DNA of 64,000 nt from a bacterium (GTDB lineage: Bacteria; Oederibacteriota; CAKKQC01), in assembly GCA_919901855.1 (NCBI GenBank), contig CAKKQC010000027.1, forward strand, positions 62,001 to 126,000, read 5' to 3'. Below, piece after piece: positions 14,079-62,649 of this stretch (its first letter is position 1; each line of letters starts with the position of its first letter). The position numbers and the translations under genes were made by a program. Under the pieces are notes generated by a model. The model had not been told where the DNA came from. It saw only the letters and a program-made list of their open reading frames with translations, and did no database searches.

Positions 14079-14108
14079 AGTATGCGCACCTCGCCCTCGG
14101 ACTGTCAA
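14079..14108 (-). promoter_or_regulatory. Sigma-70-type promoter of ppdK
   Basis: On the minus strand TTGACA (14103-14108) is followed after 18 bases by CATACT (14079-14084), a near-consensus -35/-10 pair. It lies 44 bases before the ppdK ATG, leaving a leader of about 35 bases that contains AGGAGGG. Confidence 0.7.
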
Positions 14109-27918: not shown

Positions 27919-28719
27919 TCAGCGGAGGACTTCGATGACTTCCGCGACCACCTTGACCTCGCCCTCCTCGACATCCTTCAGGACGATGGGCTTGAATTCC
28001 GGATTGGTGGGTTCGAGTCGAATCTCTGCGTGGCGCCACTCGCTCGTGCCGGTTGAAACCTTCGTGCTGGCGTATCTCTTGACCGTATAGGAGCCCCCGG
28101 TGTCCGGATCATGGATACCGTGATGCTGGACCAGGACGAGCGTGACCCCGACGGCCGCAGCCCACTCCCCGACGATCGTCGCGATGAACTCCGGCCCGTT
28201 GTCGCTCCGCAGGTGCGCCGGTACCCCGTACTGATGCCCGAGCCACTCGAGCAGCGCCACGACCTCCGCGGCCTTGAACGAGGGCGCCGCCACGAACGCC
28301 AGGCACTCCCGCGTGTATTCGTCCACCACAGCCAAGAGCCGGATCGACCGTCCGCCCAGCGTCCAGTCCTTCATGAAGTCCAGGCACCAGACCTGGTTCG
28401 GCCCCGTAGCCCGCAAACCCAACAGCTCCGGGATCGGCTTCTGCCGACGCCGTTTCCGCTTGCGGGGCTTCACTTGCAGCTTCAGTAGCTTCCAGATCCG
28501 GTGCACCGTGTTCTCCCCGATCCGCCCCACGAGGTCTCGGACCGCGTCCGTCGCCCGCCGGTATCCCTCGCGCGGAGCGTCCTGGGCCAGCACGGGCAGC
28601 AGCGCCTTCAGCTGCTCGTCCCGTGCCCGTCCGCGACTCACGTACCGCAGGGACGCCCGGCTCCACCCCAGCAGACGGCACGCCCCCCGCTGCGAGAGGT
28701 CCGGAATCGCCGCCAGCAC
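27919..28719 (-). pseudogene. IS3-family transposase OrfB, truncated and joined to the tail of another gene
   Basis: The first about 193 residues are an IS3-family OrfB: an HTH_21-like region, then the rve integrase core with the first Asp in VWCLDFMKDW (D114) and the second in RSDNGPEF (D173). The third catalytic residue, Glu about 35 residues later, is missing. Instead the frame continues into about 70 residues (DPDTGGSYTVKRYAS, then NPEFKPIVL and a VVAEVIEVL end) that do not belong to transposases. That tail looks like the end of an S24/LexA-like peptidase domain, with YTVKRY holding a possible catalytic Lys; this reading is uncertain. The junction lies near 28125-28145. The product cannot be an active transposase. 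Confidence 0.8.
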
Positions 28720-29096
28720 GTCCGCCAGCCGTGCCCGGCGTTCCGCCGGGCTCAGGCTTTTCCCCGTAAGGCCACGGAGAGGGCGCGGCGCGCCAGCTCC
28801 GATTCCGCCAGCAGTTCCTTGAGGTGCCCGTTCTCACGCTCCAGCTCCCGGAACCGCTTGGCCTCCGGCGTCGAGAGCCCGCCGTACTTGTGCCGCCACC
28901 GCACGAGCGTCGATTCGCTGATCCCGAGCACCCGGCACGCTTCCTCGACAGGCTTGCCCTGCGCCAGGAGCGCTTCCGCTTCGCGTACGATCCTGACCAT
29001 CTCCTCCATCGGCTGACGCTTCTTCATGTCGCCTCCTTGCCCCTCCGGGGCCGGCGACTGTCACTCTACCTGGACTCAAGAACCGGGGGCACTGCA
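28130..29096 (-). mobile_element. Truncated IS3-family insertion sequence
   Basis: The element starts at about 29096 on the minus strand with TGCAGTGCCCCCGGTTCTTG, a TG-starting end usual in the IS3 family, and this start falls inside hsdR. OrfA (28752-29027) and OrfB follow in the usual order. A GGGGAAAAGCC site at 28757-28765, just before the OrfA stop, would allow the -1 frameshift that makes OrfAB. The distal part of OrfB and the right terminal repeat are gone, so it cannot move on its own. Its insertion or a later deletion removed the 3' half of hsdR. Confidence 0.8.
28752..29027 (-). CDS. IS3-family transposase OrfA
   Basis: The 91-residue protein is the helix-turn-helix subunit of an IS3-family transposase. 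The HTH spans about residues 20-46 (AQGKPVEEACRVLGISESTLVRW), followed by a leucine-zipper-like coiled coil (FRELERENGHLKELLAE). It has a Shine-Dalgarno AAGGAGG seven bases ahead of the ATG. The slippery GGGGAAAAG run at its end would place ribosomes in the OrfB frame. It is intact, unlike OrfB. Confidence 0.9.
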   Translation of the reverse strand: MKKRQPMEEMVRIVREAEALLAQGKPVEEACRVLGISESTLVRWRHKYGGLSTPEAKRFRELERENGHLKELLAESELARRALSVALRGKA

Positions 29097-30923
29097 CGCC
29101 AGCTTCTCGCGCCGGGGCTTGTTCCGTATGTGCATCTGCCAGTCGGTCTCTGACGCCGATCCCGTCATGACGACCTTGATATGCCCCTTGGCGTCGTCAT
29201 CGTCATGCCAACCTGGCCTCAAAGCCGTGATGGCCCGGTACACGTCAACGCAAATCCGGCGGCTCATGCAGACGATCATCGCCTTCCCATCCATGGCTTC
29301 CTGCCGGGCATCGAAGTGAGCCAGGAGGTCATGGACCACGATCGCGGTTCGCTTGTCGGCCCCCACGACCGCCTCCAGCGCGGCCCACTTGGTCTTGAGC
29401 CGCTCCTTGCTCGGTGCTTCTTCCCCCTCCGTGATCTCCTCGAACTCCACGTCCAGCTTGGGTCGCTCAGCCTCATCCAGCTCGAGTTTCGCGAGCCGTC
29501 CTTCGTAGTAGATGGGCACCGTGGCCTTGTCGGCGACCGCCCGCTGGATGTCGTAGATGCTGATGTATTCGCCGAATACCGCCCTCGTGCTCCGGTCCGT
29601 GAGATCCAGCGGGGTCGCCGTGAACCCGATGAACGAGGCATTGGGCAGGGCGTCCCGCAGGTGCTTCGCCAGCCCGTCCATGAAGTCGTAGTGGCTCCGG
29701 TGCGCCTCGTCGGCGATCACGATGATGTTCCGGCGATCAGAGAGAAGCGGCATGGATTGTCCCTTCTTGTCCGGAAGGAACTTCTGTACGGTCGTGAAGA
29801 CGACGCCCCCAGCCGCCACTTTGAGCAGTTCGCCGAGGTCCGTGCGTTCGTCGGCCTGGACCGGCTTCTGGCGAAGGAGTTCCTGACACCGCGAGAACGT
29901 GCCATAGAGCTGGTCGTCGAGGTCGTTCCGATCGGTCAGGACAACGACAGTCGGATTCTCCATGGCTGGTTCGACGACGATCCGGCCGGCGTAGAACGCC
30001 ATCGTCAGGCTCTTCCCGGATCCCTGCGTGTGCCACACGACCCCGCAACGGCGGTCGCCCGAAGGACGCGATGCCTTGACGGTGGTGACAACCGCGTGCT
30101 CGACCGCATGGAACTGGTGGTAACCCGCGATCTTCTTGACCAGTGCCTTGCCATGATCCTCCTCGAACACGATGAAGTGACGCAGATACCGGAGGAAACG
30201 CCCGCGGTCGAACAGCCCTTTGACCAGCACTTCGAGTTCCGGCATCATCGCCGAGGCGGGCTCCTCGCCCCCGATGGTCCGCCACGGCAGGAACCACTCC
30301 CAGTCCGCGGTCAACGACCCAAACCTGGCCTCGTTTCCGTCCGACGCCACCAGGACTTCGTTGAACGTAAATAGTGGCGCGATCTCGTCCTTGTAGGTCT
30401 GGATCTGCTTGAACGCGGTCAGGACGGTAGCCTTCTCGTCCGCCGGGTTCTTGAGCTCGATGACCGCGATCGGCAGTCCGTTTAGGAACAGCACGATATC
30501 GGGACGCCGATGGTGCTGTCCCTCCATCACCGTGAACTGGTTCACCGCAACCCAATCGTTCTCATTGGGATCGCCGAAGTCCACGAGTCGCGCCTTGGCA
30601 TATGCGACCCGGCCGTCTTCCTGATACGAAACGTCCACGCCGTCGACGAGCATCCGGTGGAAGAGCCGGTTGCCCTGGGCCAGCGACGGCGCGCTCAGTC
30701 CGACGACTCTCCGGAAGGCATCCTCGATAGCTTCTTCCGGCAGCTTCGGGTTCAGGGTCTCCAGCGCCTCCCTCAACCGCCCGGCGAGGAGCACCTCCTG
30801 GTAGGTATCACGTTCAGCATCCCGCTCTCCCGGCGCGATCTCTGGTCCATGGAGAACCGTGTATTCGAGTTCGTCCAACCACCCGAGCGCCGCTTCTTCG
30901 ACCTCGGACTCAGTGAAGCTCAT
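29076..30923 (-). CDS. hsdR: Type I restriction enzyme R subunit, truncated by an IS3 element
   Basis: This 615-residue frame keeps the N-terminal nuclease domain (PD at 141-142 and ELK at 156-158, the PD-(D/E)XK site), Walker A HTQGSGKS (298-305), the DEAH box (405-408) and motif [10 protein letters not shown] (433-439). It stops soon after the conserved [12 protein letters not shown] segment, where the last six residues come from the IS end. Full HsdR proteins have about 1000 residues, so most of the second RecA-like domain and the C-terminal assembly region are missing. DNA translocation and restriction should be lost. It lies 34 bases after a small gene in the RM operon. Confidence 0.9.
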
Positions 30924-30957
30924 GGACGGCTCCCCTCGGCCCGCAGGCCCTGCCGCG

Positions 30958-31173
30958 TCACTCAGGTTGCAGGAGCTCTGCAGAGGAGCTCACCGGCTTG
31001 ATCTTGCCATTCTTGAACTCCGCCATCGCATCCGCGGCATACTTCCAGATCTCTGATTCGGGGACCATCCTGAGGGTGAACGTCTTGAAGGCGGCCGCCA
31101 GCGTGGTCGACGGCCCCTCACTCGGGACGTAGATCACCTCGTTGCGTTCGTCGATCCGCCTGCGCGTCTTCAT
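30958..31173 (-). CDS. Small protein of unknown function (71 residues)
   Basis: Starting at the ATG at 31173, which overlaps the stop of the preceding small gene (ATGA), the product has 71 residues. It starts [20 protein letters not shown] and contains a long amphipathic stretch ([31 protein letters not shown]). I recognise no family. Its tight packing between the other small gene and hsdR suggests it belongs to the RM operon, perhaps as a regulator or antitoxin-like partner; this is inference. Confidence 0.5.
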
Positions 31174-31364
31174 TTCGCGAAAAGACGTTGCATGTCCTCG
31201 ACCGTCGGGAGTTCCCGCTCGTCCCTGAGAATCTTCGTTTCCCGCATCTCGAACGACACCCCGCCGATGAGGACGCAAGAATCCTTCATGGCTGCGATCA
31301 GCTTCTCGACGGAAACGTCGGTCCCTTCGATACTGAGGACGATCTTCCTCCTGCCCATTGTCAC
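31170..31364 (-). CDS. Small protein of unknown function (64 residues)
   Basis: A 64-residue protein, MTMGRRKIVLSIEGTDVSVE onward, with alternating beta/alpha character and an acidic/basic C-terminal helix ending in RLFAK. Its stop overlaps the next start by four bases. It follows the DUF1828/1829 gene after 37 bases. No family is recognised; codon use resembles the other island genes. The pair with the next small gene may be a functional unit. Confidence 0.5.
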   Translation of the reverse strand: MTMGRRKIVLSIEGTDVSVEKLIAAMKDSCVLIGGVSFEMRETKILRDERELPTVEDMQRLFAK

Positions 31365-31401
31365 ACCCCCCTAGCTAGCCGAACCGCCCAATGCATCCAG
31401 G

Positions 31402-32169
31402 TCAATTGAGAAGAGGTTGTGCACTCGTCTCCCTTTGCGACCAGAGAATCGGATGAACTGAATATGCTCCGAGAGCCTCGAGAACATCGCCCCCCGCACT
31501 CCTCTCTCCATCGTTCAAAAAGGCAAAGGCCTCGACTCCCTTGCCTCGGCCCTCGCGGGTATCTTCCAGGGAAAAAAGGAAGGAGATGATCGAGTGCTTC
31601 GAAGGTGCATTGATGACCTGCACCAGGCGCTCCGGCCTGTTTCGAGAAGGCGGGATCAGAAAATCAACCGCATGGTCGTATCCGCTCTTGCCAGCCAACT
31701 TGACGCGTTCGTTGTATCGTACTTCCTTGAGATCAAGGTACTCACGCACATCCTCGTAGAACAGCGTTTCTACACGAGCTCGGGCCATGACGAACATGTC
31801 GCTGATGGCCAGCATTGCCTGAACGAGATTGTGGGTGCGTTGGCCGAGATTGCGCGGCGACGCCTCCACGACGAGGCGGCCACCGTCGTTCCTCACGCCG
31901 AAACCATTCAAGACCGACTGGAGAATGTCCTTCCGCTTGGGCGAGTTGAGGTCCAAGCCGCTGGCTCGTAGGTCCGCCATCGTGTAGCCGTCATCGGAAA
32001 GAATGACGTTTCCATTCTGCTTCTGCGCGTAGACCTGCACGTGGTCGTTGTGGCGATCAAGGAAGGGGGTCGTCAGCTCGCAGGAACCTCTGAGCTCCTG
32101 GGTCACAAGGCCCTTTCGAAGCCACGAAACGTAGGCTTCGATGAGGGTATCGCATTCCTGGCGGTTCAT
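31402..32169 (-). CDS. DUF1828/DUF1829 domain protein
   Basis: The 255-residue protein matches the DUF1828 plus DUF1829 architecture. The N-terminal part has ELTTPFLDRHNDHVQVYAQK and the LSDDGYTMADLRASG block (about residues 31-75); the C-terminal DUF1829 part lies at about 160-245 with SFLFSLEDTREGRGK. Such proteins are found near restriction and phage-defence genes, but no activity is established that I know of. Its ATG overlaps the DUF6978 stop (ATGA), so the two are co-translated. A two-gene toxin-antitoxin or defence pair is an inference. Confidence 0.8.
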   Translation of the reverse strand: MNRQECDTLIEAYVSWLRKGLVTQELRGSCELTTPFLDRHNDHVQVYAQKQNGNVILSDDGYTMADLRASGLDLNSPKRKDILQSVLNGFGVRNDGGRLVVEASPRNLGQRTHNLVQAMLAISDMFVMARARVETLFYEDVREYLDLKEVRYNERVKLAGKSGYDHAVDFLIPPSRNRPERLVQVINAPSKHSIISFLFSLEDTREGRGKGVEAFAFLNDGERSAGGDVLEALGAYSVHPILWSQRETSAQPLLN

Positions 32170-32597
32170 ATGAGACTCACCTGGATTTGAGGCACACCTT
32201 GAATATGGCAGAAGACACAGAAATCCTCCAGCGCTAACCCCATATCCTTCAGATCGTGAAACTCTGCCGGATCAGCAGCAACAGCCCACCGATCCTCGTA
32301 GCCCTCTCGATAGACGTGCATATGATCTGGACCAACCTGGCTCTCGTCCGGATTCGTGTGCGGGGCGCCCCCGAAATCCAGCCTCACGAGAATGATGGCC
32401 TTTCGTCCCCGCGTCTGATACCTCGCCTTGGAGAGGCGGATAGTGCCCCGCCAGATATCGAGGATGAACCTCTCCCGCCTGTCTTTGCTCTGGAGATCAT
32501 GGGATTCGTCCAAGCCCGGCTTGAGATAGATCGGCTGTGGATCCACAAAGTCCTTGTCAGCGGCGATGAGGGCGTCAGCTTCGGCCTGCGTCAACAT
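32166..32597 (-). CDS. DUF6978-like protein paired with the DUF1828/1829 gene
   Basis: This 143-residue protein begins MLTQAEADALIAADKDFVDP, resembling DUF6978-family proteins, and has a central beta-rich part (RLSKARYQTRGRKAIILVRLDF) followed by an H-T-N-P-D-E/H-M-H-V-Y-R-E-G-Y-E-DRWA segment with several conserved-looking His and acidic residues that might form a metal site. The overlap with the following DUF1828/1829 gene implies a fixed partnership. Function is unknown. About 250 bases without a clear gene lie upstream, perhaps holding its own promoter and one tiny reading frame. Confidence 0.65.
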   Translation of the reverse strand: MLTQAEADALIAADKDFVDPQPIYLKPGLDESHDLQSKDRRERFILDIWRGTIRLSKARYQTRGRKAIILVRLDFGGAPHTNPDESQVGPDHMHVYREGYEDRWAVAADPAEFHDLKDMGLALEDFCVFCHIQGVPQIQVSLI

Positions 32598-32606
32598 GGT
32601 TGGCTC

Positions 32607-32681
32607 TCAGCATAGACTCGTGCGGTCAGCAGCGGGCGCGTTTGCCGCGTCGATATTGAGCGCGAAGCCCATCTCAGCCAT
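32607..32681 (-). CDS. Possible 24-residue peptide upstream of the DUF6978 gene
   Basis: An ATG at 32681 preceded by GAGGAG eight bases upstream opens a 24-codon frame that stops 9 bases before the DUF6978 start. The peptide begins MAEMGFALNIDAANAP. The good ribosome site and position suggest a leader peptide or small protein, but so short a frame can be chance. Confidence 0.25.
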   Translation of the reverse strand: MAEMGFALNIDAANAPAADRTSLC

Positions 32682-32845
32682 GCTCGCTACTCCTCGCTTC
32701 CCGTGGGATCATCGGTTCGTCAGCCCCGGCCGACTACCGTTCATTCTAACGCGGCCCTACCTTCCGGCCGATGCTCGCCGCCTCTAGAATGCCAACCCGC
32801 TCACGTTTTCTGCTCGTGATTCTACAGCCTCTCGCGCCAGCCGGG

Positions 32846-33337
32846 TCATTTGGCGTATTCCGCCCAATGTGATTCGATGAATCCCCGCATGCCACCCTTG
32901 GGAGCGTACGCGGGATAGACTTTCCGGAATTCGTCCTCTGCGATCCCGAGGCTCGTCTTCGGCAGCACGTTCGTTTGTGAAACGAGATAGAGCAATCCTA
33001 GCGATGGAGCACGTGACTCACCTTGATTGCAGTGAATCAGCGCCCTGTCCCCAGACGCGATCGCTTCCTTCGTGAAGGCAAGCGCTTCGTCGACGATCTC
33101 CTTGGCGATGTAGGCTGGCTCTTCCACGTCCACGAGGTTGAGGAAGAGTCTCTTGTCCCGTCTTGCCCACAGGTACTCAGGATGGTCATTGGGGGCGCCA
33201 CGTCCTCGGTATCCGAGGAGTTCTCGGTGGTAAGGTTCCTTGCATGCGTGGACCGTCCACCATCCAGCCTGACCGATGACTGATTCCTCGAAGTCCGCTG
33301 CGGCTCCGACAAAGAGCCTCTGGCAGATCTCAACCAT
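32846..33337 (-). CDS. Dual-specificity/tyrosine-phosphatase-like protein
   Basis: The 163-residue protein carries the cysteine phosphatase signature IHCNQGESRAPS: catalytic Cys103 and Arg109 in a C-x5-R loop, with a likely general acid Asp70 in LNLVDVEEP. The fold size fits compact dual-specificity phosphatases. It would remove phosphate from proteins or from another phosphate ester such as a nucleotide or RNA end. It follows the GIY-YIG gene by 22 bases within the RM operon, which is unusual company and suggests a defence-linked signalling step. The partner and substrate are unknown. Confidence 0.85.
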   Translation of the reverse strand: MVEICQRLFVGAAADFEESVIGQAGWWTVHACKEPYHRELLGYRGRGAPNDHPEYLWARRDKRLFLNLVDVEEPAYIAKEIVDEALAFTKEAIASGDRALIHCNQGESRAPSLGLLYLVSQTNVLPKTSLGIAEDEFRKVYPAYAPKGGMRGFIESHWAEYAK

Positions 33338-33359
33338 TACTCGCCATTTTCATCTGCTC

Positions 33360-34217
33360 TCATCCGGCCACCTCGGCGTCCTGGATTTCCTTCAGCGTCC
33401 GGCCATCGGCGGCCTTCCATTCGACACGGCCGTTCGACGAACGTCCGAGGACGACCCCAGCGGCCGTAGAAGGAGACGAGAAGAGGTAGTTCTGCGAGAA
33501 GACGTACGCATCGCCCTCCGGCCTCAAGACGCCATTCTTGATCAGTGCCACACGCAACTCCACTATGTAGGCATGACATGAAGGGACCTCGGACTTGGCT
33601 GCGCGGCTCCCTGATCGCACCTCGAATCCCTGCGGCGTCTCCACACCATCGGCCTCGACTCCGCGCGCCCTGAGGTGCAGCGCCGGCCCAGCCCTTGTCT
33701 CCCCCATGGCCTCGGAAAAGACGCTGACCCCCAGCACAGGGAAACAGAGAAGCATCTCGGACAGAAAGCCCTCCGCGTCCGCCGCATCGGCTTCCGAAAG
33801 AGACGGGAGCTGAGGAGCGTTTCCGTTGTCCAGAACGCAGCGCTTCGCATCCGCCGCCAGCTTCACCAACCGGGCTTCGAGATACTGGACATGGGCTTTG
33901 TTCAGATTCTCGTCCTTGCTCGTGAAGGCAATGCAACTGATCCAGAAGTCCTTCTTCGCCGCATGCTGGTCGAGACGTGGCCGGATCGGATCTCCTTCGC
34001 CTACGTAAACCAGAGGAAGCCCCGACTCTTCCGAGGGGCCGGTCAGGACGTAGACGCCAGTGCGGTCAAACTCCTTGCGTTGTCTCGTCTCTCCGAACAG
34101 CGAACGCGGAACGACAAGCCCACTGCCATTCCAATTCGACTTCTCGATGGTCCGCAACCCATCCGGATTGCCCCCGGGCAGGAAGATCCTGATCGAATAC
34201 GGCTGACTACCAATCAT
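33360..34217 (-). CDS. GIY-YIG nuclease-family protein with C-terminal DUF4357
   Basis: From the ATG at 34217 (AGGAGG seven bases upstream) the protein has 285 residues. The GIY-YIG nuclease domain spans about 50-120: GVYVL (54-58), YVGEGD (71-76), conserved Arg in PIRPRL and metal-binding Glu114 in YLEARL. The C-terminal about 55 residues match DUF4357, a domain often found with type I RM proteins and GIY-YIG enzymes. It is likely a DNA endonuclease, perhaps aimed at foreign DNA. It lies directly after the MNT-HsdS gene with a 48-base gap, so it is part of the RM operon. Confidence 0.85.
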   Translation of the reverse strand: MIGSQPYSIRIFLPGGNPDGLRTIEKSNWNGSGLVVPRSLFGETRQRKEFDRTGVYVLTGPSEESGLPLVYVGEGDPIRPRLDQHAAKKDFWISCIAFTSKDENLNKAHVQYLEARLVKLAADAKRCVLDNGNAPQLPSLSEADAADAEGFLSEMLLCFPVLGVSVFSEAMGETRAGPALHLRARGVEADGVETPQGFEVRSGSRAAKSEVPSCHAYIVELRVALIKNGVLRPEGDAYVFSQNYLFSSPSTAAGVVLGRSSNGRVEWKAADGRTLKEIQDAEVAG

Positions 34218-34265
34218 GTGGTCGCCTCCTGGATGACCCATCCCATGCCAGCTTCTCCCACTAGG

Positions 34266-35855
34266 CTACTCCACTCTGAACCGGTGGGGGTCGATACTGA
34301 CCGGACCATCGACGCGGATTTCACCGGACAGAAGTCGAGGTAGGAGCGCGTCCCGCAGGGCGGCAAGGGTGCGACGTCCCGAGTCCCCCCGATCCACTCG
34401 CTCAGAGATTCCTGTTGCGTACTTGTCGAACTCCTCCAAGATCGGCGGTGGCGGAACAACTTGTTTGCTCATATACGCGAGCTTCCTGTTCAGGCCCGAC
34501 ACAGCAGAATCAGCGCCGAGCGACGCGAGATCGAGTATTTCGAGAGCGTGAAACAGGAATTGCATACTGCTACAAATCCCCGAAGGTACGACGAAGAAGG
34601 CCGTGTCAATGGCGAAGAAGTCCTTGGGAGCCCAAGTGACAGTGCCCGGATTCCCCTTTCGGCCGACCACAATCCCCGGACCACTGGCAAGCCGTTGGTT
34701 GTGCCATCCTATCTGGCCGTTCGAGCCATAGACCGGGACGTTGCCTTCCCGACGATCTCCCGCCTTCAGGGCTCTACCGTAGGCCAGTTCAAACACCTCT
34801 CCAAGCTCCTTCACCTCCCAGCCCGCAGGAATTAGTCCCAGTTCGGAGTCCTCGAAGGCACCGGGAAAGAGGTCAACGATCTCCGTGGGCAGGCAGGGAT
34901 CGCGGCCCTCGGACTTGGCGCGGACGGGGTCAAAGTCAACGAACCAGGACTTGAAGAGGGCGCGGGCCATGGACTCGAGAGTCTCGTTCATCCGCCGGTT
35001 GAGCTCGATTTTGTCGTCAAGGGCGCCTAGGACATGCGCGATGGCGCGTTGCTCGGGTTCGGGCGGTAGGAGCACACTTAGAGACTTCAGCTCATCGGTG
35101 TTCAGACGTCCCGTGCCGTGTCCCGCGGAGTCCACGAGGCCGAGCAGACGATCCTTGTTGCCCAAGAGGACATAGGGAAGGAAGTCGCTTCTAAGGTCGG
35201 GTTTGGGGCAGACGGCCTTCACGTCCTGGTTAAAAGCCATCGGGCGTTTGACGATACAGATGGGGACGTCATTGTGGAGCGTCATGCCTCTGACCAGGAG
35301 CATCACACTGCCGGCAGGCGTGAGTCTCGTGCCATTGGCCACGCCCAATTCCGTCACATGATCTTCCGTATCGTCGAGACGGAAGCGTTTCATGTCCTTC
35401 GCCGAAACCCAAGGAATCGATCCTCCCCAATACCGCGGATCGCCTTTGGCTGGCGTGCCACCGGAGAAGAAGTTAGCCACCGAGCCAAGGGATACCTCGC
35501 GCCACCCAACTGTCTTCCTTCGGTCATTCCCTTTACATACCTGAATCACCTCATACCCCTTCTCGATCACCTTCCTGAAGGAGTCAGAAATCCCGTGCCA
35601 GTCCAGGACGTCCACACGGATGGGAAGGTCGGAATCCGAAAAAGCCTCTTTGATCCGCGCGAGCAACTGCCAGTCGAGTTTCTCCTTGCCGACAATCGCC
35701 AGGTCGAGGTCGGAATGATCCTTGGCCGTCCATGTGGCGCGGGAACCGAAGGCCCGAACCTCGCGGTCGGGGACATGCTCATGGAGGATGTCGAGAACTA
35801 TCTTGAGATGATCGGGCCGGAGGTCAATCAACTGCTCGTTCCCGTATCTTCTCAA
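34266..35855 (-). CDS. hsdS: Fusion of MNT-type nucleotidyltransferase and type I RM specificity subunit HsdS
   Basis: A single 529-residue frame joins two proteins. Residues 1-105 are a minimal nucleotidyltransferase of the MntA/HI0073 type with the exact GS-x10-D-x-D motif (GS 37-38, D49, D51) and a third Asp near 82-85. Residues about 117-529 are a complete HsdS: TRD1 (WREVSLGSV, GGTPAKGDPRYWGG, IPWVSAKDM), a central helical spacer (LPPEPEQRAIAHVLGALDDKIELN), TRD2 (GWEVKELGEVFELAYGRALK) and a C-terminal spacer (LRDALLPRLLSGEI). No ATG, GTG or TTG lies between the domains, so no separate HsdS can start there. The start is a TTG (35855 or 35831) overlapping the HEPN gene. HsdS sets DNA specificity; the MNT half should modify the HEPN partner. 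Confidence 0.9.
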   Translation of the reverse strand: MRRYGNEQLIDLRPDHLKIVLDILHEHVPDREVRAFGSRATWTAKDHSDLDLAIVGKEKLDWQLLARIKEAFSDSDLPIRVDVLDWHGISDSFRKVIEKGYEVIQVCKGNDRRKTVGWREVSLGSVANFFSGGTPAKGDPRYWGGSIPWVSAKDMKRFRLDDTEDHVTELGVANGTRLTPAGSVMLLVRGMTLHNDVPICIVKRPMAFNQDVKAVCPKPDLRSDFLPYVLLGNKDRLLGLVDSAGHGTGRLNTDELKSLSVLLPPEPEQRAIAHVLGALDDKIELNRRMNETLESMARALFKSWFVDFDPVRAKSEGRDPCLPTEIVDLFPGAFEDSELGLIPAGWEVKELGEVFELAYGRALKAGDRREGNVPVYGSNGQIGWHNQRLASGPGIVVGRKGNPGTVTWAPKDFFAIDTAFFVVPSGICSSMQFLFHALEILDLASLGADSAVSGLNRKLAYMSKQVVPPPPILEEFDKYATGISERVDRGDSGRRTLAALRDALLPRLLSGEIRVDGPVSIDPHRFRVE

Positions 35856-36240
35856 GCAGATACTTCACGTCCGGCAGGAACCGCCGCGCCACCGCCAGCA
35901 CTTCCTCCGCGACCACCTCGTCGTAGGTATGCGATGTGATGTTGCGTTTCTTCAGGTACTCGAGCCACGGCTCGGCATCCCGGACCATGCCCTGCTCGAA
36001 GCCGAGACGGAAGAGATCCTTGCTCGCGATATCATCGGAGTCTTCCAGACCGTACATCTCCAAATAGCGCCTGAGGAACTTGCGGGCCAGCTCGAACGTG
36101 TACTCGAATCGCTGGATGACCGCGTCGCGGAGGAACTTCCTCTCCTTGGCCTCCACCCCCAACGCCGAGGCGTCGTACGCCAGGAGCACTTCCTCGAACG
36201 AACGCGCCGCCTTTTCGAAGCTGGTCAGGTCCAATGCCAC
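35824..36240 (-). CDS. HEPN-domain protein, HepT/HI0074 type (putative RNase toxin)
   Basis: The 138-residue helical protein belongs to the HI0074-type nucleotidyltransferase substrate-binding/HEPN family. It has the RX4HXY motif as R99-NITS-H104-T-Y106, the toxin signature of HepT proteins: Arg/His form the RNase site and the Tyr is the residue AMPylated by MntA-type antitoxins in studied systems. FEYTFELARKFLRRYL is the usual second helix. The GTG start has AGGAGG about ten bases upstream. Its stop overlaps the MNT-HsdS start, so toxin and antitoxin-HsdS fusion are translated together. Here HEPN activity is inferred from motif and context. Confidence 0.9.
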   Translation of the reverse strand: MALDLTSFEKAARSFEEVLLAYDASALGVEAKERKFLRDAVIQRFEYTFELARKFLRRYLEMYGLEDSDDIASKDLFRLGFEQGMVRDAEPWLEYLKKRNITSHTYDEVVAEEVLAVARRFLPDVKYLLEKIRERAVD

Positions 36241-36263: not shown

Positions 36264-37829
36264 TCATATCTCGTAGCCAAGCCCCTTCAGGTTCTGCTTG
36301 ATCGTCTTGTCCAGCCGCTCGCCTTCCGCCATCTGATCCTTGAGCGCCCCGGTCAGCCGCTTCATCTTCTCATCGAACGGCTCGCCGTCGTCGCGGGCCT
36401 CTTCGGCGCCCACATACCGGCCGGGAGTCAGGACGTGACCGTGGGCGCGGATCTCGGTCAGCGTCACCGACTTGCAGAATCCGGCCACGTCCGCGTACTT
36501 GCACTTGCCGTCCTTGTCGCCACGCCAGGCGTGATACGTCCCTGCGATCCTGGCAACATCCACGTCTGTCAGGTCGCGGTGGACGCGGTCCGCCATGGTC
36601 CCGAGCTTACGGGCGTCGATGAACAGGACTTCCCCGGCGCGGTCGCGGAACCGCCGATCCTTCTTCTCCCGCGCGAGGAACCACAGAGAGACGGGGATCT
36701 GGGTGGAGTAGAAGAGCTGACCCGGCATGGCCACCATGCAGTCCACGAGGTCCGCCTCGACGAGGTTCTTGCGGATCTCGCCCTCGTTGCTAGCCGTGCT
36801 GGACATACTGCCGTTGGCCAGTACGAACCCGGCCAAGCCGGTGGGACCCAGGTGGTGGATGAAGTGCTGGACCCAGGCGAAGTTGGCGCTCCCGGCGGGG
36901 GGGACGCCGAACTTCCACCGCTTGTCCTCGCGAAGCCGCTCTCCGCCCCAGTCGCTGGAGTTGAACGGAGGATTGGCGAGGACGTAGTTGGCGCGAAGGT
37001 CCGGGTGCAGGTCGCGGTGGAAGCTGTCGGCGGGCTCGGGTCCGAGATTCGCGTCGATTCCGCGGATGGCCAGGTTCATCTTGGCGAGCTTCCACGTCGT
37101 CGGGTTCGACTCCTGCCCATAGACGCTGATGTCGCCGACTTTGCCGCCGTGCTCCTGGATGAACCGCTCGCTCTGGACGAACATCCCGCCCGAGCCGCAA
37201 CACGGATCGTAGACCCGGCCCGAATACGGGGCCAGCATTTCCACGAGCACGCGGACGACGCACCGAGGGGTGTAGAACTGGCCGCCCTTCTTGCCCTCGG
37301 CGCTCGCGAACTCGGAGAGGAAGTACTCATAGACACGGCCGAGAACGTCCGTGGACCGGCTGGCCCGATCCCCGAGCGTAATCGTGCCGATGAGGTCCAT
37401 GAGCTCGCCGAGACGCTGTTTGTCGAGCGAAGGGCGGCCGTAGTCGCGGGGAAGCACGCCCTTGAGCGTATCCTTGTTCGCGCGCTCGATCGCGGCCATG
37501 GCGTCGTCGATCAGTCTGCCGATCGAGGGCTGTTTGGCGTTCGCGAGAAGGTGCGGCCAGCGGGCTTCCTTGGGCACCCAGAAGACGTTAGCCATCCGGT
37601 ACTCGTCCGGCTCTTCCGAATCGGCGCCCTTCTTCTTGTCGACGACCAACTGCTGGCGGCGCTCCTCGAAGGCATCGGAGACGTACTTGAGGAAGATGAG
37701 CCCGAGCACGACGTGCTTGTACTCAGCCGCGTCCATGTTGTTCCGGAGCTTGTCCGCCGCCAACCACAGCTTGGCCTCGAAGCCAAGATTGGCCCCGGTC
37801 CTCTGCGCGGATGCGGCCTTCTTCGCCAT
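36264..37829 (-). CDS. hsdM: Type I restriction-modification system DNA methyltransferase subunit
   Basis: The 521-residue protein is a complete HsdM, the N6-adenine methyltransferase that with HsdS methylates the host recognition site. An N-terminal helical domain (about 15-175) includes [16 protein letters not shown]; the catalytic domain has motif [10 protein letters not shown] (208-216) and motif IV NPPF (286-289), preceded by GGQFYTPR. It is the first gene of the RM operon, 48 bases after the GH42-like gene. A TAGACT box 6 bases before the ATG may drive it. HEPN follows after 23 bases. Confidence 0.97.
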
Positions 37830-60600: not shown

Positions 60601-62649
60601 GTTCCCGGACACCAGGAAGTCCCACGCGTACTGCGTGACGTTGGCGGGGTAGGCTGAGAGGGCCGGGATGTTGTCCGGCAGGGACGGGGACGACGGCTGG
60701 GAGTTGTTGACCGAGCAGGCCCCCGGCGGGGTGGCCGGGACGATACAGACGTTCCCCTTGGGCGGCGACGGCGCGCCGTTGGGCGGATCGATCGGGCCGT
60801 ACGGGTGGTACGCGCAGCAGGCGTCGATCCCGTTCAGCGTGGCCGCGGCCCCCGTGTTCGTGATCGTGGTCTGGACCTGGACCGAGTCGCCGAGGTAGGC
60901 GACGTTCGCCGGCCGCGTGCCCGCGCCCGAGACCACGGCCCGGGAGGAGCACTTGAACTGCGACACGATGTTGAGCGTCCCGCCCCAGGAGTCCGTGAAG
61001 ACCTGCTGGAGGGTGCTGTCGCCCTGGTAGCCCCCCGAGGGCGGGATGCTGCAGTCGAAGTAGCTGCCCTCCCACGACCCCGCCGGGCTGGCGAAGTCAG
61101 TGTCGTCCTGGTCCGCGGCGAAGACGGTGAAGTCGAGCGAGGGCCATTCGGTCCGGGCGACGAACGTCCAGGAAACCCGGGCCGTGTTGTTCGGCTGGCC
61201 GTAGGCCACGTTCACGTCCGTGTACTGGAGCCCCGTGAACCCGCCGACGGCGTAGACCCGGTCCAGCACCCCGTCGTTCCCGGCCGCCGCCCCCAGCCAC
61301 GTCCGCGGCGTCGGCATGTTCGCCTTGGTCGCCCAGGCGCCGCCGCCGGGGTCGTACTCCTCGTTGTTGACGCTCGAATCCGGGGCGCGGTCGATGAGGA
61401 CGCCGAAGTTCTGGACCCCGCCCACGGCGTAGAGCTTGCCGCCGACGGCCGCCATCGCCAGCCGGCTCCTCGGTTCGTTCATGAATCCGCCGGTGTTCCA
61501 TCCGTCCAGGACGGGATCATACCCTTCCATGTAGGGATCCACGGACGCCCAGTCCCAGCCGCCCGCGGCCCAGACGTAGGAACCATCCGACGCGGCCGCG
61601 AAGTCGCCCCGGAGCGTGAACGCCGGGGAGGGAGCAGGCGTACTCCACGTATTCAAGGAAACGTCGTAGATCTCGAAGGCGGCACTGAGCCCCCCCCACG
61701 ATCCGTCGAGCCCGCCGGGGACGTAGATGAGGTCGCTGCCGAAAGGTGCCAGGGTCGCCGCCGCGATGCCGTACCTCGGCGTGGGACACGGCATCTTCGT
61801 CGCCCACGTGTTTGTCCCGGGGTTGTATTCCTCGACGACGTTGAGCACGGCCCCCCCGTCGCCCCGTCCGCCGATCGCGTAGATCTTGCCGTTCCCCACC
61901 GCCACCGCCAGCCCCTCCCGCGGGGTCGGCATCGGCGCCTTCGCCGCCCAGGCATCGGTCGTCGGGTCGTAGGCCTCGACCGCCGGGGAGAGCCCGGCGG
62001 CAGACCGGCCACCGATGGCGTAGATAATGTTCCCCACGGCGACCACTCCGAGCCGCGCCCGTGGCGTCGGCATGGACGCCTTCGTCGTCCAGACATCCCC
62101 AGCCGGGTCGTAGGCCTCCACGGTGCCCAGGAAGACCCCGTTGTATGCGAACGTCGTGACCGGCTCGACCGCGATCAGCCCCACGGGCGACCCGACGGGA
62201 TCCGGGTACAGGCCCTGCTTGAGGCAGTCCCCGGTGACGGGCCACACCCAATACTGGCCGGGCCACTGCCCCCAGATCCCCGAAGCCATGTTCCCGTTGT
62301 TCTCGATGAGGCCGTCGAATCCGTCGGCGCCGAACCCGCACGTCATCGCGTTCGGCTGGGGCACGCCGATCCCCGGGGGGGAGCCCGGATCGGCGCACAG
62401 GTTGCCGAGCAGGCCGCTGTTGTCCTCGAGGGTCATCGTGATCCGGAACCAGTCTCCGATCGTGATCGTGTCCCCGGGATTCACGTTGTACCAGGTCCCC
62501 CCGGAATCGAAGCTCCGGGATACGGAAAGGCTACCGCCCACGATCCGGAGGGCGGCAGCGGGGGCCGGGAGCATCGTGGCGAGGAGGAGGGCGGCGAACG
62601 CATATATATGGAAGGGCTTTCCGGAGCGCGCCCGGGCGCCGGAATCCAT
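57688..62649 (-). CDS. Large secreted kelch-repeat protein with FlgD-like C-terminus
   Basis: From the ATG at 62649 (GGAGG five bases upstream) the protein has 1653 residues; an ATG at 62670 is an alternative. After the signal peptide (ends AAA near residue 33) and a first beta domain come about six kelch repeats (about 190-490) with signatures such as YDPTTDAWAAKAPMPTPR and IYAIGGR, which should close into a beta-propeller. Many Ig/CARDB-like repeats fill the middle. The last about 90 residues are FlgD-like (LRIYTITGDLVRTL, VPWDGRNDAGQRCASGVYLARI). Cysteine pairs are frequent. A surface or adhesion function is inferred. It heads a coupled set of genes and has a possible promoter upstream. 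Confidence 0.85.
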   Translation of the reverse strand: MDSGARARSGKPFHIYAFAALLLATMLPAPAAALRIVGGSLSVSRSFDSGGTWYNVNPGDTITIGDWFRITMTLEDNSGLLGNLCADPGSPPGIGVPQPNAMTCGFGADGFDGLIENNGNMASGIWGQWPGQYWVWPVTGDCLKQGLYPDPVGSPVGLIAVEPVTTFAYNGVFLGTVEAYDPAGDVWTTKASMPTPRARLGVVAVGNIIYAIGGRSAAGLSPAVEAYDPTTDAWAAKAPMPTPREGLAVAVGNGKIYAIGGRGDGGAVLNVVEEYNPGTNTWATKMPCPTPRYGIAAATLAPFGSDLIYVPGGLDGSWGGLSAAFEIYDVSLNTWSTPAPSPAFTLRGDFAAASDGSYVWAAGGWDWASVDPYMEGYDPVLDGWNTGGFMNEPRSRLAMAAVGGKLYAVGGVQNFGVLIDRAPDSSVNNEEYDPGGGAWATKANMPTPRTWLGAAAGNDGVLDRVYAVGGFTGLQYTDVNVAYGQPNNTARVSWTFVARTEWPSLDFTVFAADQDDTDFASPAGSWEGSYFDCSIPPSGGYQGDSTLQQVFTDSWGGTLNIVSQFKCSSRAVVSGAGTRPANVAYLGDSVQVQTTITNTGAAATLNGIDACCAYHPYGPIDPPNGAPSPPKGNVCIVPATPPGACSVNNSQPSSPSLPDNIPALSAYPANVTQYAWDFLVSGNAFFPGFGGCSTGGTGSGTAYWDVLIQGAKSETPWIYVQPAPLRITATAWVDPDGPAGPLLAVPMGTTAGGAAGYYYYMGQESIDATFIFTNTSTLYTFDVQPDIAVGGFDATAFMMIQGPTPSAALLLAPGQSATVVWAFTRTPGGTLDSCAPSVIGNVATFTAAARGAAATQSVEVSDVPFRPFDAVPLGTTPGTRFLTFDIPSTAPLGSFTMNLYATNTENRDFILDAAASFYLSTSSFGGSVSWTSSPAPPPLAWNAGQTRTLSWVYSADVPGEVRVQAGLDFKSVPPPCQIACRKGTAQPTYCNSTDGFYPTGRMFVIIPGSFSTSLFTAGPPVSCNDNGQTVLVQLGIRNTSSIYCAVVTQFCDNNFPDSFPIGYANPYANAPAPYPAFASPQPPLPFTIPANGTQLVTWYMDASCPPTPGGVLSFGCFSKTYRMVEGYTVNCKTLGVINPADGADWGGTAPAVTITQPAYLSCSIWTDKMECSVGQTITVYFSVSNEGGDDLTTFGVGTWPTTFLGAAVGPAVGPVPAPPAVYTGSNACTSPPPFASNQTFTWQFQTLSKGKVVFTATAMGWDAGCGTWKMTTCQTPVIKIASSAQLACGPPQATPVVTMSVSCTGCPPESGCDRVTGSGCLNVSMDLSNFGDIPVGNVAVSLSGAPPALRTCIPVGSCVSGSAILEPGMPIQPPTPLGTLASGTAVWRYAPAGLGCLQVHVEAFGNDNATGVTLYCDGWTTCAQIRARFPMGLSLVGVPNQIAPGQEFPVQVKVCNPGDTPASLQSGEPAFQFFLAATGAKVTDQYDVLPPPPVLLQSGECRTIDVTVVAHRNAESGPVEIRVAQGSQFVAMDAATGLPFPAVDTGGAVTTRLISLQNKLVVENNPAKILKEMAVLSYQIADPGRQGGRTTLRIYTITGDLVRTLVDKPAVIEEKSVPWDGRNDAGQRCASGVYLARIESPTFSKVAKVAILK

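Follow-up and report, generated by a model that had tools for sequence, protein, structure and literature searches.

The window, by which we mean the whole stretch of 64,000 nucleotides analysed here (positions 62,001 to 126,000 of contig CAKKQC010000027.1, assembly GCA_919901855.1, from a bacterium of the phylum Oederibacteriota), contains a type I restriction-modification (RM) operon whose hsdR gene is truncated beside an element of the IS3 family. The genes and features concerned are as follows.

36264..37829, minus strand: hsdM, N6-adenine methyltransferase, 521 aa, full length (PF02384, E 7.7e-106; PF12161)
35824..36240, minus strand: HEPN (HI0074/HepT-like) predicted RNase toxin, 138 aa (PF08780, E 9.4e-35)
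34266..35855, minus strand: MNT-HsdS fusion, 529 aa from a mechanically assigned TTG start (PF01909/PF18765, and PF01420 in two stretches)
33360..34241, minus strand: accessory gene, DUF4357, PADLOC candidate PDC-S14
32846..33337, minus strand: gene with a weak dual-specificity phosphatase match (PF00782, 24.0 bits, below the cut-off of 33.5)
32166..32597, minus strand: accessory gene, DUF6978, PADLOC PDC-M24A
31402..32169, minus strand: accessory gene, DUF1828/DUF1829, PADLOC PDC-M24B
29097..30923, minus strand: hsdR 5′ fragment, 608 codons, with the HSDR_N nuclease and first RecA-like domain retained
28141..29096, minus strand: truncated IS3-family element, left end TGCAGTGCCCCCGG, inner boundary uncertain by about 10-15 bases
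29027-28752, minus strand: orfA of this element, IS3-family match
from 28719, minus strand: orfB of this element, IS3-family match, ending before the catalytic Glu
27919..28140, minus strand: 3′ remnant of a large Eco57I/DrmMI-like methylase gene, 73 codons and a stop, from the S24-like C-terminal domain

How much of hsdR is left? The reading frame at 30923-29076 (minus strand) encodes 608 residues that align with HsdR proteins, followed by six codons that belong to the insertion sequence. Pfam identifies the HSDR_N domain and the first SNF2-like ATPase domain in the stump, which covers the hsdR profile TIGR00348 up to position 578 of 674 and the best PADLOC type I REase profile up to position 615 of 1029. 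The alignment ends exactly at 29096, where TGCAGTGCCCCCGG starts. Comparison with nine relatives that carry an uninterrupted hsdR confirmed the truncation: the intact proteins run 412-438 residues beyond the junction point, and the first block lost past the junction is LVIVRDMWLTGFDxP...QAIARVNRVF, which corresponds to helicase motifs V and VI. The preliminary description, which had HsdR losing most of its second helicase domain, was correct in this respect; with 608 of about 1024-1075 residues, the operon does not encode an HsdR that has both helicase lobes plus the C-terminal domain. The missing 3′ part was absent from the rest of the genome, which is 93.5% complete; about 40% of the gene has been deleted, rather than the gene having been split into two halves. 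Because motifs V and VI and the C-terminal domain have been lost, restriction by this operon should be dead, in that such a stump would be expected neither to translocate nor to cut DNA.

The insertion sequence is itself incomplete. Its orfB covers the IS3 profile only up to position 303 of 369, and, when aligned with ten transposases of the IS3 type, the sequence departs from the family soon after the second Asp (SDNGPEF), before the PG.P..N...ESFNG block. Thus, orfA and the first two Asp residues of the DDE triad are present, and the Glu has gone through truncation. Only the left end of the element exists, with neither paired terminal inverted repeats nor a target-site duplication; no right inverted repeat matching the left end was found in the region, and no credible one in the genome. 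A match to the IS end with three mismatches on another contig (C21) fell within the control count and was rejected both as a right inverted repeat and as a second copy, and the genome holds the element in a single copy. The element is a dead remnant of the IS3 family. Of the original proposal that such an element had cut hsdR in half, the truncation and the IS3-family left end at 29096 hold good, but the element is partial and the 3′ part of hsdR is deleted rather than displaced.

On the far side of the element, the final 74 codons of the reading frame given as a transposase (28140-27919) are not transposase sequence but the tail of a methylase gene. This remnant shares 65% identity over its 74 codons with the C-terminus of a 1471-aa protein from a genome of the same phylum (G008; L054:6267-10682), and similar ends are present in further genomes. 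Pfam assigns Eco57I/N6 methylase domains to the 1471-aa protein, together with a C-terminal domain that is S24-like, and the protein matches the DrmMI and type IIG models of PADLOC; the remnant in the window, with only the C-terminal 74 codons, lacks the Eco57I/N6 methylase domain that marks a DrmMI or type IIG protein. The remainder of the gene is absent from the genome to which the window belongs. An 80% match to the methylase tail on contig C1 had no counterpart at the protein level and was taken as chance. In G008, the 1471-aa methylase gene comes after two helicase genes, which encode an MrfA-like Zn-binding helicase and an SNF2 helicase, and this three-gene system (L054:202-10682) resembles DISARM in parts.

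The remaining genes of the operon are in better condition. HsdM carries the motifs DPCCGSGG and NPPF within N6_Mtase and HsdM_N domains, as in type I systems, and is 65% identical across its whole length to the HsdM of a Nitrospirae locus (L011). The HEPN protein scores 94.5 bits against TIGR01987 (cut-off 55.8) and carries RNITSHTY, which conforms to the RX4HXY motif of HepT. In the MNT-HsdS protein, for which an alternative TTG start at 35831, overlapping the HEPN stop, is equally likely, residues of approximately 9-106 form the MNT part, in which GSRATWTAKDHSDLD at residue 37 conforms to GSX10DXD, and an HsdS with two target recognition domains (PF01420 in two stretches; PADLOC Specificity_I) follows from approximately residue 117. 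An internal GTG start may also produce a separate HsdS. A single-base frameshift was considered as the origin of the fusion, but the existence of a fused protein in Zymomonas, together with a PADLOC profile (PDLC03138) that covers MNT plus HsdS, makes a real fusion likelier. Four genes (31402-34241), namely PDC-S14, the gene with the weak phosphatase match and the PDC-M24A/B pair, sit between hsdS and hsdR. Both HsdM (521 aa) and MNT-HsdS (529 aa) are open and full length, in agreement with the initial impression that they were intact. Type I enzymes need no HsdR for methylation, which the M2S complex carries out. The apparently intact HsdM and HsdS can presumably still form a methyltransferase, and methylation could continue. 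The earlier statement that restriction is dead while methylation can go on is therefore well founded in its first half and plausible by inference in its second.

Class I HepT/MntA toxin-antitoxin pairs, among which those of PF08780 and PF01909 are counted, are recognised by the combination of RX4HXY and GSX10DXD; the Tyr of the first motif is the residue that MntA AMPylates (PMC7641770). Judging from these motifs, the HEPN RNase is probably held inactive through AMPylation by the MNT part of MNT-HsdS. The HepT and MntA equivalog models of NCBIfam gave 19.3 and 33.7 bits, respectively, below their cut-offs of 60, and we therefore assign the pair to HepT/MntA by motif and Pfam family and not as equivalogs. 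In Shewanella oneidensis, the type VII toxin-antitoxin system HepT/MntA likewise has an RX4HXY HEPN beside a GSX10DXD nucleotidyltransferase (PMC7641770); in the window, by contrast, HEPN is the upstream gene, the MNT part is joined to HsdS, and the pair is a predicted one. The clustering of HEPN genes with R-M operons was described in 2013, along with PrrC, an RNase whose RM partner keeps it inactive (PMC3710099). The operon in the window resembles PrrC/PrrI in that an RNase is encoded within an hsd operon, possibly as a second line of defence, and differs from it in having an HI0074-type HEPN with an MNT partner, whereas PrrC has its own NTPase domain (PMC3710099).

The closest overall counterpart is on plasmid pZMOB01 of Zymomonas mobilis (NC_017180.1), which shares the order hsdM-HEPN-MNT-HsdS-hsdR (hsdM at 30878-32470, HEPN at 3-392), the MNT-HsdS fusion (WP_014466389.1, 527 aa) and both the RX4HXY and GSX10DXD motifs. 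Its HsdR (WP_014466390.1) is 50% identical to the stump; unlike the window, pZMOB01 has a complete hsdR, no accessory genes between hsdS and hsdR, and no IS. Acetobacter plasmids (e.g., NZ_CP021512.1, NZ_CP042810.1 and NZ_CP021923.1) have the same order, hsdM-HEPN-MNT-hsdS-hsdR, and include operons that are complete, but in these plasmids MNT is a separate gene that overlaps or adjoins hsdS. In NZ_CP021923.1, hsdR is also shortened, beside an IS (IS1380A), and in A. pasteurianus pAP1468-1 an IS lies in both hsdS and hsdR. On an A. ascendens LMG 1591 plasmid (L077:4138-11727), the N-terminal part of hsdM has been lost near an IS1380 copy and HEPN, MNT, hsdS and hsdR remain, a mirror image of the hsdR loss in the window. 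The closest HsdR proteins are found in four Nitrospirae loci (L011, L012, L017 and L018; 65% identity in L011), in two of which, the Nitrospiraceae loci L017 and L018, the M24A/M24B pair also lies on the upstream side of hsdR; unlike in the window, HEPN/MNT was not found in these four loci. Internal losses affect hsdM in L012 and both hsdM and hsdR in L018, and in L016 hsdM and hsdR are split into pieces (tblastn). Decay of this RM clade, or else faulty assembly, seems to be frequent in draft genomes. The operon type is already known, and the truncation is an ordinary loss of restriction; what the window offers is an example of RM decay into a solo methyltransferase.

When might hsdR have been lost? 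The 608 codons of the stump contain neither a stop nor a frameshift. At sites invariant in four relatives, the same four for both proteins, the stump and HsdM have changed at 29/267 and 28/266 positions, respectively, a ratio of 1.03 in a test that is coarse, with five sequences; the same ratio is 0.51-1.77 in lineages with an intact hsdR. Against nine relatives, 8.1% of the invariant sites of the stump are broken, but relaxed constraint was rejected as the cause, as HsdM is equally high with matched taxa and the figure thus reflects a long branch. Because the stump is unbroken and as conserved as HsdM, the loss of hsdR looks recent. A close relative with an intact locus was not found among 45 genomes of the phylum; the intact HsdR homologues in these genomes (G039, G007 and G011) share 51-60% identity with the L011 query. 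The operon was absent from the one genome of the same family examined.

We consider it quite probable that the region is a defence island gained by horizontal transfer, and that its type I operon, of the form hsdM-HEPN-MNT-hsdS-(accessory genes)-hsdR, recently lost hsdR through IS insertion and subsequent deletion. Third-position GC, which is 0.65-0.90 in the island and 0.90-0.95 in the flanks, is consistent with acquisition. An IS3-family element inserted into hsdR after codon 608, as the junction at 29096 shows. A later deletion, extending from inside orfB into the 3′ end of the neighbouring Eco57I/DrmMI-like methylase gene, would then have removed the right end of the IS, the 3′ part of hsdR and most of the methylase gene, as suggested by the second junction; the order of the two events is deduced. 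The remaining genes would be intact mainly because the loss is recent.

Could the junctions have been created by the assembly, with unrelated fragments joined at the IS in a population that has an intact hsdR? IS elements often break assemblies, and a chimeric join at about 28140 is conceivable in a draft of 91 contigs. However, the element is present only once in the genome, the second junction falls inside orfB, where a misjoin caused by repeats would not place it, rather than at an end of the IS, and neither the missing part of hsdR nor the rest of the methylase gene is on any other contig; we therefore regard this explanation as very unlikely. A truncated HsdR retained because it serves a separate purpose, such as regulation or partnership with a methyltransferase, would also agree with the 608 open codons and the uneroded conserved sites. 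Yet recent loss accounts equally well for both, no relative was found whose HsdR stops at this position, and helicase function requires the motifs V and VI that have been lost here, so that such a role appears extremely improbable.

A further explanation concerns the genes that remain. If the HEPN toxin were neutralised only by an MNT domain fused to HsdS, then MNT-HsdS, and hence the methyltransferase, could not be lost after restriction had died. Such addiction is possible and is allowed by the sequence: the motifs are those that define Class I pairs (PMC7641770), the fusion occurs both in the window and in Zymomonas, and HEPN and MNT are still annotated on pAP1468-1 in spite of its IS insertions. 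It is, however, not needed. No observation points to a loss so old that the retention of these genes would call for an explanation; if the loss is recent, the intact neighbouring genes require no addiction. Moreover, MNT-HsdS could be deleted harmlessly together with HEPN, MNT and HsdS may be uncoupled by an internal start, the toxicity of HEPN is a prediction, and the pair stays below the equivalog cut-offs. We thus think addiction unlikely here, and we find it quite improbable that the operon has turned into a stable methyltransferase, fixed by a HEPN toxin whose antitoxin lies inside the specificity subunit, with methylation outlasting restriction. The suggestion in the preliminary description that loss of MNT-HsdS could be harmful gains sequence support from the two motifs, but the puzzle of the retained operon, which it was meant to solve, does not arise with a stump that is unbroken and as little changed as hsdM. 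Apart from recent hsdR loss, the location of HEPN-MNT inside a type I RM operon, where MNT forms one protein with HsdS both in the window and in Zymomonas, would constitute a putative link between a toxin-antitoxin pair and DNA specificity that can be tested in the laboratory.

On contig C10 (L053:6197-13212), the genome encodes another type I system, which is complete, with an HsdM of 832 aa, an HsdS of 472 aa and an HsdR of 1007 aa. With 30% identity to the L011 HsdR where the two align, this HsdR does not represent the missing part, and we infer that it probably does not act with the HsdM and HsdS of the window. A full hsdR elsewhere in the genome had been named as evidence against the truncation; a complete one does exist, but it belongs to an unrelated system. 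The description of a methylation-only RM system accordingly suits the window operon and is weakened for the organism as a whole. Beyond the second system, a 238-aa ORF lies at 14103.
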